Assembly (NCBI GenBank): GCA_002717505.1
Contig: PBEB01000016.1
Location: forward strand, 1 to 64,000
DNA length: 64,000 nt
From: Leptospiraceae bacterium
GTDB taxonomy: Bacteria; Spirochaetota; Leptospiria; Leptospirales; Leptonemataceae
Reading direction: 5' to 3'
The notes beneath the pieces are model-generated. The model was not told where the DNA came from and did no database searches. It worked only from the letters and a program-made list of their open reading frames with translations. This document shows, in pieces, positions 61,236-64,000 of the stretch. Positions within the stretch are counted from its first letter, which is position 1; each line of letters begins with the position of its first letter. The translations under genes were made by a program, and so were the position numbers.

Positions 61236-61863
61236 GTCAATACCGGAAAGTTACAGATCCGTTCGCTATGATCGTGGAGTCAGTGAGTTCCATCGAAGTT
61301 ATGGATCTCCCCGGGAAATCCATGACATCGCATCGGCGCAGCTCTTCCCGGAATTGATAAGAAAAATCAGAGACCGCTGTGAAGGCTGTAGAGTTCCCTG
61401 ACAGCCGTCTATCAGCAACGGCTGATGATCCATTTCAACTCTTCGCTTGTGGCCAGAAGCTGGGGTCCAATTCACCGGCAGGCTATTACCAATCCTACAG
61501 CGAGCTGTTCAAACTACAGCCATCACCGGAATTCCCATCTTAAAACAAGATAATCAGGAAACATGGATCATCGGAGTAGCAATCCTACGCCGAGATAGTC
61601 AGCTAGCGGCCAAAATCCGAACAGCCGCCTGGCGGTGAGATAGTCAGCTAACAGCCATAACCGGAACAGCAGCCTGGCGGTGAGATAGTCAGCTAACAGC
61701 CATAACCGGAACAGCAGCCTGGCGGCCAGAGCATATTCAATGCAAAACTGGACTGCAACGATATACGCAGAAAATGATGATCATTCATGGACCAAACACT
61801 TCATCAGATTTTCAGAATGTGCAGGATGCGATGCCGTGGCAAGGATGCTTTCTTTTTCTCGCA
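61236..61863. other. Intergenic region with a 45-bp tandem repeat
   Basis: Outside the repeat (61502-61725) I see no gene, promoter or terminator that I would defend. A 48-codon frame at 61740 reads like chance sequence. Confidence 0.5.
61502..61725. repeat. 45-bp tandem repeat, about five copies of graded divergence
   Basis: Units at exact 45-bp spacing: 61502-61546 and 61547-61591 (diverged), 61592-61636 (moderately diverged), and 61637-61681 with 61682-61725 (near identical). The youngest copies share GATAGTCAGCTAACAGCCAT and GGAACAGCAGCCTGGCGG. A weakly similar segment precedes at 61457. In one frame the units would encode 15-residue repeats (QLTAITGTAAWR), but the last copies are separated by TGA codons, so if ever coding it is now broken. 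Confidence 0.85.
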
Positions 61864-62811
61864 TCAGTAGCGAAAGTAATAGATGAAATGAAAGAAAAGA
61901 GGTGCCGTAAATGTTAGCGAGTCGATACGATCTAGAATGCCTCCATGGCCGGGCAGCATGGAGCCGCTATCTTTGACCTGAATATCTCGCTTCACCGCAG
62001 ATAGAGTAACATCTCCTACAAATCCCGAAAATCCTATAAGCAGTCCTGCTCCCAGGGATTCGTATAGATTCAGAGGCGTCAGTAAAGGGGCCAGAAAATA
62101 AGAAAGTACAACCGTGGTTACCAGCCCTCCCAGAAATCCTTCCACGGTTTTTTTGGGGCTAACCTTTGGAGTAATGGGATGTCTTCCCAGTAGCTTACCC
62201 CAGATGTATTGAGCCACATCGTTAAACTGTGTTAGCAGGAGTAGATAGAGTACCAGACCGGGACCACCGCCCGCGGGGTTCTTTTCCTGGTCCAGAACCA
62301 TTAGATACGCACCATGACTGATGGAAAAAACGCAGGTCATCAGTCCCCACTGAAGGGTGCCCACTGCCTTGAGGAACCCTCTGGTTTCTCCTATGCTGAC
62401 CATGGCCAGAGGAAAAAACAGGAAAGCATACACAGGAATAAATACGATGAACATTCCGTACCATCGCTCGTAGATCCAGAAATACTGAACCGGAATGACC
62501 AGAAATGGCACCCAGAGCACCTTGCGATCCGATTTGCGAAGATCTATGAGAGAGAGAAACTCATAGAGGGCCAGGACACTGATTAACGAAAAGAAGAGAA
62601 TGCTCAGTTCAATGGTGCTGAGCAATACTGCAGCGATCAATCCTACCAGAACCCACCAGGTATTGATACGTAGTTTTAGTTCGGTGAAGTCGCTTTCCTT
62701 CTTGATTCGAGAAAGCGCGAAGGCGATGATAGAAGCTAAAACCAGGCCGGCCAGAATTCCCCCAAAAGTATAGATTACGTTAGGGGTTAATGTATTGAAG
62801 GTCCATTTCAT
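61864..62811 (-). CDS. CdsA-type phosphatidate cytidylyltransferase (YnbB-like)
   Basis: 315 aa, about eight membrane helices. The CdsA signature runs SAVKRDIQVKDSGSMLPGHG and then GILDRIDS, with all Asp/Lys positions kept; SPKKTVEGFLGG is also typical. It makes CDP-diacylglycerol or a similar CDP-alcohol. Start overlaps the YnbA-like gene (ATGA). That order and the neighbour type match E. coli ynbA-ynbB, so this is more likely the accessory YnbB-type enzyme than the housekeeping CdsA; a second cdsA elsewhere would fit this. Confidence 0.88.
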   Translation of the reverse strand: MKWTFNTLTPNVIYTFGGILAGLVLASIIAFALSRIKKESDFTELKLRINTWWVLVGLIAAVLLSTIELSILFFSLISVLALYEFLSLIDLRKSDRKVLWVPFLVIPVQYFWIYERWYGMFIVFIPVYAFLFFPLAMVSIGETRGFLKAVGTLQWGLMTCVFSISHGAYLMVLDQEKNPAGGGPGLVLYLLLLTQFNDVAQYIWGKLLGRHPITPKVSPKKTVEGFLGGLVTTVVLSYFLAPLLTPLNLYESLGAGLLIGFSGFVGDVTLSAVKRDIQVKDSGSMLPGHGGILDRIDSLTFTAPLFFHFIYYFRY

Positions 62812-63440
62812 TCTTTTAATGCCTGCCTTGCACGGACGATAACCGTTAGAAGGGCAAGTGCAGCCAGAAGTGCAAAGAAAATTTCAACATAAGGTCTGGC
62901 CGGACCTCCGAAAGCAAGGTATATGGCCAGAACACTGCACCAGAAAGCGCGGTCTGACTTTCCCATAGGACCATCGTAGCGACGACTTGAGCCGGTAGCC
63001 TGGGAAAGGACTCCCATGAACTCTGTTATGATGGCGAATTTGACAAACATTACTACAGAGAGCGCAATCCAGGGCTGGATTATGCCGCTCCGAATGCCAT
63101 ACAATGCGAAAGGAAGATAAAGAAAGGCATCCGAAAGCACATCTCCCAGTTCATTCAAGAAGGCGCCTAGATGGCTCTTCATGTTATGCTCTCTTGCCAG
63201 CATTCCATCGATAGCGTTGAGTGCCATTCGTAGAAGCAATACCGCTGGAAGCCCCAGAAGAAATAATTGATGCTCGGGAAAATACAAGAAGCGAAAGCAT
63301 AGATAGCCACCGAAGAAAAGGGAAATCAACAAAGCCAGGATGGTAACTTGATTTGCGGTGATACCCATTCGGGCCAGACCCCGACAAAGAGGTCTGAGGA
63401 TATTCTGGAAACGAGACTTGAGCTGATAAATGCTTGCCAC
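62808..63440 (-). CDS. CDP-alcohol phosphatidyltransferase (YnbA-like)
   Basis: 210 aa, about six membrane helices. It begins ASIYQLKSRFQNILRP and carries ALNAIDGMLARE...GAFLNELGDVLSD and SSRRYDGPMGKSDRAF. Compared with the canonical Dx2DGx2ARx8Gx3Dx3D motif the first and third Asp are Asn (NAIDG, GAFLN). The E. coli YnbA protein, as I recall it, has the same Asn pair and the same RRYDGPMGKSDRAF ending, so this is a family trait. The alcohol substrate is unknown. Start is GTG at 63440. Diverges from the hydrolase-fold gene by 41 bp. Confidence 0.88.
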   Translation of the reverse strand: MASIYQLKSRFQNILRPLCRGLARMGITANQVTILALLISLFFGGYLCFRFLYFPEHQLFLLGLPAVLLLRMALNAIDGMLAREHNMKSHLGAFLNELGDVLSDAFLYLPFALYGIRSGIIQPWIALSVVMFVKFAIITEFMGVLSQATGSSRRYDGPMGKSDRAFWCSVLAIYLAFGGPARPYVEIFFALLAALALLTVIVRARQALKE

Positions 63441-63481
63441 GGCAAATGGTATGCCTTAAACCCAGGGAGGGTCAACGAAAA

Positions 63482-64000
63482 ATGAGTCTATTCCCCGCAA
63501 AGTCTCTTGAGCTGAAGAATGGAAACTCCCGGGCTTTGCTGGTAGTACCTGGCATCGGTTACGGTCCCTCTGGACGAAAGTCCATGCAGCGTTTTTTCCG
63601 TCTTTCCAGCCTGGATCTTTTTGTGCCCGATTACATCCAGAAGTCCGGAATCAATGACTCGGTTCGATATCTCCAGGACTACTGGTCCAAAAATCATCTG
63701 GATCATTACTCCAGGGTCTATGTCTTTTGCTTTATTGCCGGCGGATATGTTCTTGATCGCTGGCTTCAATTAGATGCTCCGCAGATGTCTGGAGTGCTTC
63801 TGGATCGTAGTCCTTATCAAGAGAGAGCCCCGTCCATTGTTACCAATCGCATCCCTCGTATTGCCAGAATGCTTTTAGGTGATTTTGTATTCCAGCTGGC
63901 TGCTGCCCGATATCCGGATCTCTGGGCCGCGCTTAAAACCAGGGGAATACGTCCGGGACTGGTAATTGAAGAGAAACGCTCCTGGGTGATTAAGCTTTTC
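63482..64000 (+). CDS. Hydrolase-fold protein, cut by window end
   Basis: 173 codons are open to the window edge, so the gene is partial at its 3' end. It begins LLVVPGIGYGPSGRKSMQRFF, like an alpha/beta-hydrolase first loop, and shows VFCFIAGGYVLDRWL where the nucleophile elbow GxSxG would be, with no Ser. It may be a non-catalytic or differently built hydrolase. AGGGAGGG about nine bases upstream supports the ATG at 63482. Divergent from the YnbA-like gene, as a partner in the same pathway could be; E. coli places a hydrolase gene (ynbC) after ynbB. Confidence 0.7.
   Translation, partial: MSLFPAKSLELKNGNSRALLVVPGIGYGPSGRKSMQRFFRLSSLDLFVPDYIQKSGINDSVRYLQDYWSKNHLDHYSRVYVFCFIAGGYVLDRWLQLDAPQMSGVLLDRSPYQERAPSIVTNRIPRIARMLLGDFVFQLAAARYPDLWAALKTRGIRPGLVIEEKRSWVIKLF

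Follow-up and report, generated by a model that had tools for sequence, protein, structure and literature searches.

What does a bacterium make with a CDP-alcohol phosphotransferase of the YnbA type, a second CdsA-like enzyme encoded behind it, and a divergent hydrolase-like protein that has no nucleophile serine? The question is raised by three genes at the end of the window, the 64,000 bases analysed here, which are the first part of an 83,027-base contig from a Leptospiraceae genome that is 88% complete. For ynbA, which belongs to the best-studied bacterium, Escherichia coli, no published tested activity was found in the titles and abstracts of the literature searched, subscription papers lying outside its scope; in the available part of one report, YnbA is termed a predicted diacylglycerol choline-phosphotransferase and is 3-fold up after peptide treatment (PMC12871917). 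Relatives with the same two active-site asparagines occur, according to record titles, in many phyla. The Ynb pair itself is known, as an uncharacterised kind, and the Asn/Asn site and the serine-less partner appear undescribed in the literature searched. A conserved change at residues termed "absolutely conserved", together with a second CDP-diacylglycerol synthase and a frequent acyltransferase, points to an unnamed membrane lipid, and a spirochaete with the ynbA-ynbB module and the serine-less hydrolase-like gene probably makes a minor membrane lipid.

Identity of the ynbA-ynbB pair and layout of the locus

The three genes are here called wA, wB, and wC. wA (positions 62,808 to 63,440, minus strand; 210 amino acids, GTG start) encodes a YnbA-type CDP-alcohol phosphotransferase according to blastp, PF01066, and its structural model, and wB (61,864 to 62,811, minus strand; 315 amino acids) encodes a YnbB-type CdsA paralogue according to blastp and PF01148, with its catalytic C-terminal half intact. 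The two overlap by 4 nucleotides, in the order wA then wB. The divergent wC begins 41 bases from wA on the plus strand, most likely at the ATG at 63,482, where the mechanical list of open reading frames has the TTG at 63,434. It runs out of the window at 64,000; the gene, truncated when first described, could be completed from the contig, on which it ends at 64,198 and encodes 238 amino acids. In the gap between wB and an aminotransferase-like gene lie three 45-base tandem units (61,592 to 61,725; 93% matches). A fatty-acid-hydroxylase/sterol-desaturase-like membrane protein, named by eye from its His boxes, is encoded near wC (contig positions 65,076 to 65,915, minus strand; L008:10077-10916); loci L036 and L037 also have such a gene, and in L099 one adjoins a wC fragment.

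The BLAST comparison with ynbABCD that the first-pass annotation proposed places wA closest to E. coli YnbA (42% over 210 columns, E 6e-37, 117 bits by blastp), the four other CDP-alcohol phosphotransferases of its own genome scoring at most 31.6 bits. Those four carry the canonical signature, and wA is the sole exception among the five. PF01066 is matched at 34.1 bits (cut-off 22), and the model (mean pLDDT 93.4) has the family fold, with phosphatidylinositol-phosphate (PIP) synthases as its nearest solved structures; one of these, 5d91, gives Z 20.7 and rmsd 2.6 over 191 aligned residues. By descent and fold, wA is a member of the CDP-alcohol phosphotransferase superfamily without the full eight-residue signature. 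A closer kinship to PgsA or PssA, named at the outset as an objection, did not emerge: TIGR00560 (PgsA) gives 23.8 bits against a cut-off of 109.1, TIGR00473 (PssA) gives 19.6 against 107, and the fold compares at Z 12.7 with PSS and 11.6 with PGP synthase, versus about 20 with PIP synthases. The model scores and the fold comparison rule out that wA is PgsA or PssA. That it is a spare PgsA- or PssA-like enzyme with an ordinary phospholipid product, sharing the superfamily and presumably also the donor, is very improbable in view of the same weak scores and fold comparison and the four canonical CDP-alcohol phosphotransferases already in the genome.

wB follows E. coli YnbB over nearly its full length (48% over 298 columns, E 1e-80 by blastp; wB 19-315 to YnbB 9-298) and matches PF01148 at E 3.8e-65, confirming that a CdsA paralogue stands after the phosphatidyltransferase in the ynbA-ynbB order. 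Residues D198, K221, T222, D267, K274, R275, H289, D294, and D297 are conserved in at least 48 of 49-50 family rows, and all nine are also found in the canonical CdsA of the genome. That second cdsA lies elsewhere, between uppS and dxr in a frr-uppS-cdsA-dxr row (gene names by eye), so the possibility that wB is the only CdsA of the genome, which would have spoken against a dedicated pair, is ruled out. Similarity between wB and this CdsA is confined to residues 188-305 (84.7 bits, versus 237 bits to YnbB); E. coli YnbB is likewise described as CdsA-like in its C-terminal half only, in the accessible text of PMC7018664. According to the portions available, E. coli YnbB synthesises CDP-diacylglycerol in vitro and is unable to take the place of CdsA (PMC7018664, PMC6362211), and ynbB was a hit in a transposon screen but was later found not necessary for ECA-PG (PMC8609368).

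Where dS is computable, dN/dS is 0.033-0.088 for wA, 0.013-0.038 for wB, and 0.18-0.30 for wC, values that are rough because dS is always above 2 and synonymous sites are near or at saturation. They indicate that all three genes are kept as proteins, with the loosest constraint on wC.

The Asn/Asn active site of wA

The superfamily signature D1xxD2G1xxAR...G2xxxD3xxxD4 is incomplete in wA, which reads N75-x2-D78-G-x2-A-R-x8-G-x3-N96-x3-D100 (63,141 to 63,218, minus strand), with N75 in the place of Asp 1 and N96 in that of Asp 3. The Asn-substituted motif noticed in the first-pass annotation is thus real, with two Asp replaced and not one. Asn at both places, with Asp 2 and Asp 4 (D100) kept, is found in all 62 YnbA-type rows with letters there, E. 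coli YnbA included, and these rows form 41 clusters at 70% identity by greedy clustering. The 22 other CDP-alcohol phosphotransferases checked (four from the same genome, 18 from phylum relatives) all have Asp at the two positions. The count left out same-genome duplicates (L009, L036-L038, L044, and L046) and L095, considered another kind of enzyme on account of its weak 29% match with Asp at signature positions 1 and 3; the fragment L094 shows a gap. The search seeds (for example MLAREHNM and KSDRAFWC) include neither N75 nor N96, yet they favour close relatives, so that 62 of 62 describes the YnbA subfamily and not all remote relatives.

Further along the protein, R153-F166 (RRYDGPMGKSDRAF; 62,943 to 62,984, minus strand) includes R153, G157, P158, G160, K161, and R164, all invariant in the 54 rows of the YnbA-family alignment A2. 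The first-pass annotation had ascribed this ending to E. coli YnbA, which holds only in part: wA does have it, and the E. coli protein has the similar, non-identical RSYAGPFGKSDRAL. R164 and R203 align with Arg155 and Arg195 of the phosphate site of Mycobacterium tuberculosis PgsA1, and R203 too is invariant in those 54 rows. On these kept arginines, the acceptor of wA is probably phosphorylated. Elsewhere in the mapping of PgsA1 onto the YnbA-type profile, Arg94 becomes Val, Lys135 becomes Ala, Arg137 becomes Gln, Ser132 becomes Gly, and Arg152 becomes Lys.

In the accessible parts of the structure papers (PMC4634129, PMC6506517), the eight signature residues are called absolutely conserved; in PgsA1, Asp 1-3 are ligands of Mg-1, Asp 3 being a ligand of Mg-2 too, and Asp 4 is presumed to act as the base. 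The residues replaced in wA are therefore ones that bind Mg-1 and bridge to Mg-2 (PMC6506517, in the portion available), which favours a pseudo-enzyme that would carry out no transfer without Asp 1 and Asp 3 and would instead bind CDP-diacylglycerol or regulate wB. Such a protein should hardly require all that is retained, since Asp 2, Asp 4, the DG and AR of the signature, and the phosphate-site Arg pair are kept in every covering row, which exceeds the needs of binding. Moreover, Asn itself can bind Mg2+, and a pseudo-enzyme is accordingly considered rather unlikely.

The place of Arg94 bears on the nature of the acceptor. It is taken by Val101 in wA and by V, I, L, or M in 62 of 62 rows, with no basic residue, and the available text of PMC6506517 describes Arg94 as crucial and conserved among inositol-phosphate users. 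A search of the 88%-complete genome for inositol-1-phosphate synthase (PF01658) gave no match. With the Arg94 equivalent missing and PF01658 not found, inositol phosphate is unlikely as the acceptor of wA, which is probably a different compound. An ordinary phosphatidylinositol-phosphate or archaetidylinositol-phosphate synthase would agree with the nearest folds, those of PIP synthases at Z about 20, and with the best curated model, that of archaetidylinositol-phosphate synthase at 82.9 bits; this score is far under the cut-off of 180, NF045883 (PIP synthase, NCBIfam) reaches 59 bits against 170, and the hydrophobic residue at Arg94 and the lack of an inositol-1-phosphate synthase match also speak against such an enzyme, making it very unlikely.

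Neighbours of the pair and co-occurrence with wC

Scanning genome contigs for YnbA-type genes gave 60 loci, with titles including Proteobacteria, Planctomycetes, Verrucomicrobia, Nitrospira, Shimazuella, and Latescibacterota; many are metagenome bins, some of which may be mis-binned. The neighbour counts use a set of 60 loci (L008, L015, L016, and L036-L092; L093-L095 were excluded). At least 900 bases are available downstream in 57 loci, and in 39 of these the next gene after ynbA, in the same orientation, is ynbB. The gene after that encodes a plsC-type acyltransferase in 29 of the 35 loci with enough sequence (PF01553 in the two members tested), so that the usual order elsewhere is ynbA-ynbB-plsC; the six without it are the window genome, its three congeners, L041, and L052. 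In the 18 of 57 loci without ynbB next to ynbA, ynbC is next in 10, and a YnbB/CdsA-type gene is found elsewhere in the locus in 14 (only 28-33% identical in L055, L072, and L076) and is missing from four. ynbC occurs within 6 kb in at least 15 and ynbD within 8 kb in at least 12 of the 60 loci, both lower bounds because the sequence of the loci is often incomplete. E. coli YnbC combines Hydrolase_4 and Methyltransf_20, and YnbD has a dual-specificity phosphatase domain, its PAP2 similarity being weak and under cut-offs. The spirochaete genome itself gave no clear ynbC (three matches, to the YnbC hydrolase half only, query residues 10-280), no clear ynbD (one 79-residue phosphatase match), and no PlsC partner beside the pair. 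Its six general acyltransferase matches (best E 2.3e-9) include one on the contig of the pair, at a distance of about 7.6 kb.

These neighbours also weigh on a serious rival, namely that the pair serves MPIase or a similar glycolipid, with YnbB making both CDP-diacylglycerol and GlcNAc-PP-diacylglycerol and YnbA acting as an accessory or as the actual transferase. MPIase levels in E. coli rise when YnbB is overproduced, and a backup role has been proposed (PMC6362211, PMC7018664); however, deletion of ynbB caused no significant change in MPIase (PMC6362211), and YnbA has no role in the accessible portions of both accounts. With plsC, ynbC, and ynbD as frequent neighbours, a phospholipid fits better, and an MPIase role, which may overlap with the phospholipid branch proposed below, is on balance fairly improbable. 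A more speculative variant starts from the two negative charges that Asn/Asn removes: a phosphate instead of a hydroxyl might then act as nucleophile, so that the CDP-diacylglycerol made by YnbB would end up in a pyrophosphate-linked lipid (sugar-PP-diacylglycerol type), which wC would handle without a serine. It would also fit the published MPIase rise on YnbB overproduction, and is regarded as a long shot.

Other neighbours recur in subsets of the loci. A membrane-protein-like family of ~180 amino acids (cluster 6) overlaps the plsC end in 8 of its 9 loci, which include L043 (10230-10769), L050, L053, L056, L059, L065, L068, and L040; two members were scanned and reached no family cut-off, and the protein may also belong to the ynbA-ynbB-plsC module. 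Close upstream of ynbA, alphaproteobacterial loci encode an alpha/beta-hydrolase-like protein in which THSMGG is intact (cluster 16; L050:3870-4574, L059:7182-7937, and L068:3813-4583), the shorter L065 copy having THSNSS. Cluster 5 consists of ABC-transporter proteins with no bearing on the pair.

For wC and its relatives, no Pfam or NCBIfam family was matched above its curated cut-off, with sub-threshold matches only. The fold was derived from the L036 orthologue, whose model is of moderate confidence (mean pLDDT 77.1; five models, 51-77; four alignment rows). With this model, Foldseek returned alpha/beta hydrolases (best E 1.7e-6; 126 chains at E <= 0.001), and VIA gave Z about 12-13.1 over about 200 aligned residues (rmsd 3.3-3.9, identity 8-16% in the best rows), esterases being tied with the cofactor-free dioxygenases HOD, QDO, and AqdC. 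In cofactor-free dioxygenases, the catalytic residue is a His, with an Asp that follows strand 6. The wC relatives conserve His204-Asp205 and DRSPxQERAP (108-117), with H204 and D108 invariant (L036 numbering). At the nucleophile elbow (CFIAGG), Ile85 (63,734 to 63,736, plus strand) takes the place of the Ser that an active serine hydrolase carries, and F-I-A-G is present in 8 of 8 distinct covering sequences (the window gene, the five adjacent genes of L016, L036, L037, L044, and L046, the L099 fragment, and the L104 paralogue; L103, which has no coverage of the elbow, was left out). wC is thus, judging by the moderate-confidence model, an alpha/beta-hydrolase-fold protein without nucleophile Ser, as had been suspected from its hydrolase-like start. 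It is no YnbC homologue: blastp finds no significant match (best E 8.5), and all 16 YnbC rows retain the Ser, so that the likeness is one of analogy only and Ser loss is not general among hydrolases beside YnbA. By eye, lipoprotein-like starts are seen in L016, L044, L046, and L104, and none in the window gene, L036, or L037.

Across the 296 genomes of the phylum set, ynbA is found in 8 (E 1e-15) and wC in 8 (E 1e-4), with 7 shared (Fisher P 1.7e-12 in the phylum and 3.5e-4 within the family of 22, P values that ignore relatedness). Both exceptions lie at contig ends, L015 stopping 66 bases past ynbA and the wC match of genome G001 starting 22 bases into contig C202 with its N terminus missing. 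Judged by co-occurrence, wC goes with the ynbA-ynbB pair in this family. Plasmid records gave no match to wC at E 0.01. Genome G001 also holds a wC paralogue (L104:1426-2202, plus strand) with a serine-less elbow and a lipoprotein-like start, beside a DUF3419 protein (L104:2371-3360, minus strand; PF11899, E 2.3e-58). The DUF3419 family includes betaine-lipid enzymes, and this neighbour may tie wC-type proteins to lipids more generally.

A candidate second CDP-diacylglycerol branch and comparison with known systems

The reading preferred here, with a probability of roughly 55%, is that wA and wB form a second CDP-diacylglycerol branch that makes a minor phosphatidyl-X, with wC as lipid binder or processor. 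By analogy with YnbB, wB would convert phosphatidic acid and CTP to CDP-diacylglycerol apart from the housekeeping CdsA, and wA would transfer the phosphatidyl group to the acceptor X with D100 as base. The kept R164 and R203 suggest that X carries phosphate or another anion, and the features disfavouring inositol phosphate apply to X as well. Metal use is probably altered, since Asn in both places should leave the two-metal site weaker or differently shaped. The hydrolase-fold pocket of wC might serve to bind or process the lipid product, with no acyl-enzyme step involved, a role that, taken on its own, is tentative at best.

This branch reading builds on observed homology, gene order, motif conservation, model fold, and co-occurrence, from which we infer each catalytic step, the acceptor, and the role of wC. 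In its favour are the full-length YnbA and YnbB similarity, a separate canonical CdsA, and the published CDP-diacylglycerol synthesis by YnbB, along with the downstream ynbB (39/57) and following plsC (29/35), D100 in 62/62 rows, and the invariant R164 and R203. Val at the Arg94 place, no PF01658 match in the genome, the 7 genomes shared between wC and ynbA (8 each), and the low dN/dS of wA are also consistent with it. Against it, only two of the four metal-binding Asp remain, so that wA could be catalytically inactive, and Ser132 and Arg152 of the PgsA1 phosphate site align with Gly and Lys. The genome is without clear ynbC and ynbD, in this genus the pair has no plsC next to it, the absence of inositol-1-phosphate synthase rests on an 88%-complete genome, and 18 of 57 loci have no adjacent ynbB, four of them having none in the locus.

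Compared with known systems, wA resembles the PIP synthases (M. tuberculosis PgsA1 and R. salmoninarum PIPS) in fold (Z 19-21, rmsd 2.3-2.9, 181-195 aligned) and in the equivalents of Asp 2, Asp 4, Arg155, and Arg195, but differs in having Asn for Asp 1 and Asp 3, in an identity of about 20%, and in the Val, Ala, and Gln of the YnbA-type profile at Arg94, Lys135, and Arg137. wB shares the C-terminal catalytic half of CdsA (T. maritima, 4q2e/4q2g), whereas its N-terminal half follows YnbB. wC has the fold of the alpha/beta hydrolases, including HOD, QDO, and AqdC, and a conserved His-Asp near its C terminus, with Ile at the nucleophile place and its own invariant DRSPxQERAP after strand 6 setting it apart. 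The locus as a whole is most like E. coli ynbABCD (b1408-b1411), with orthologue-level similarity of YnbA and YnbB, the same gene order, and the same Asn/Asn signature; in place of a clear ynbC and ynbD, it has a divergent gene for a serine-less alpha/beta-hydrolase-fold protein.
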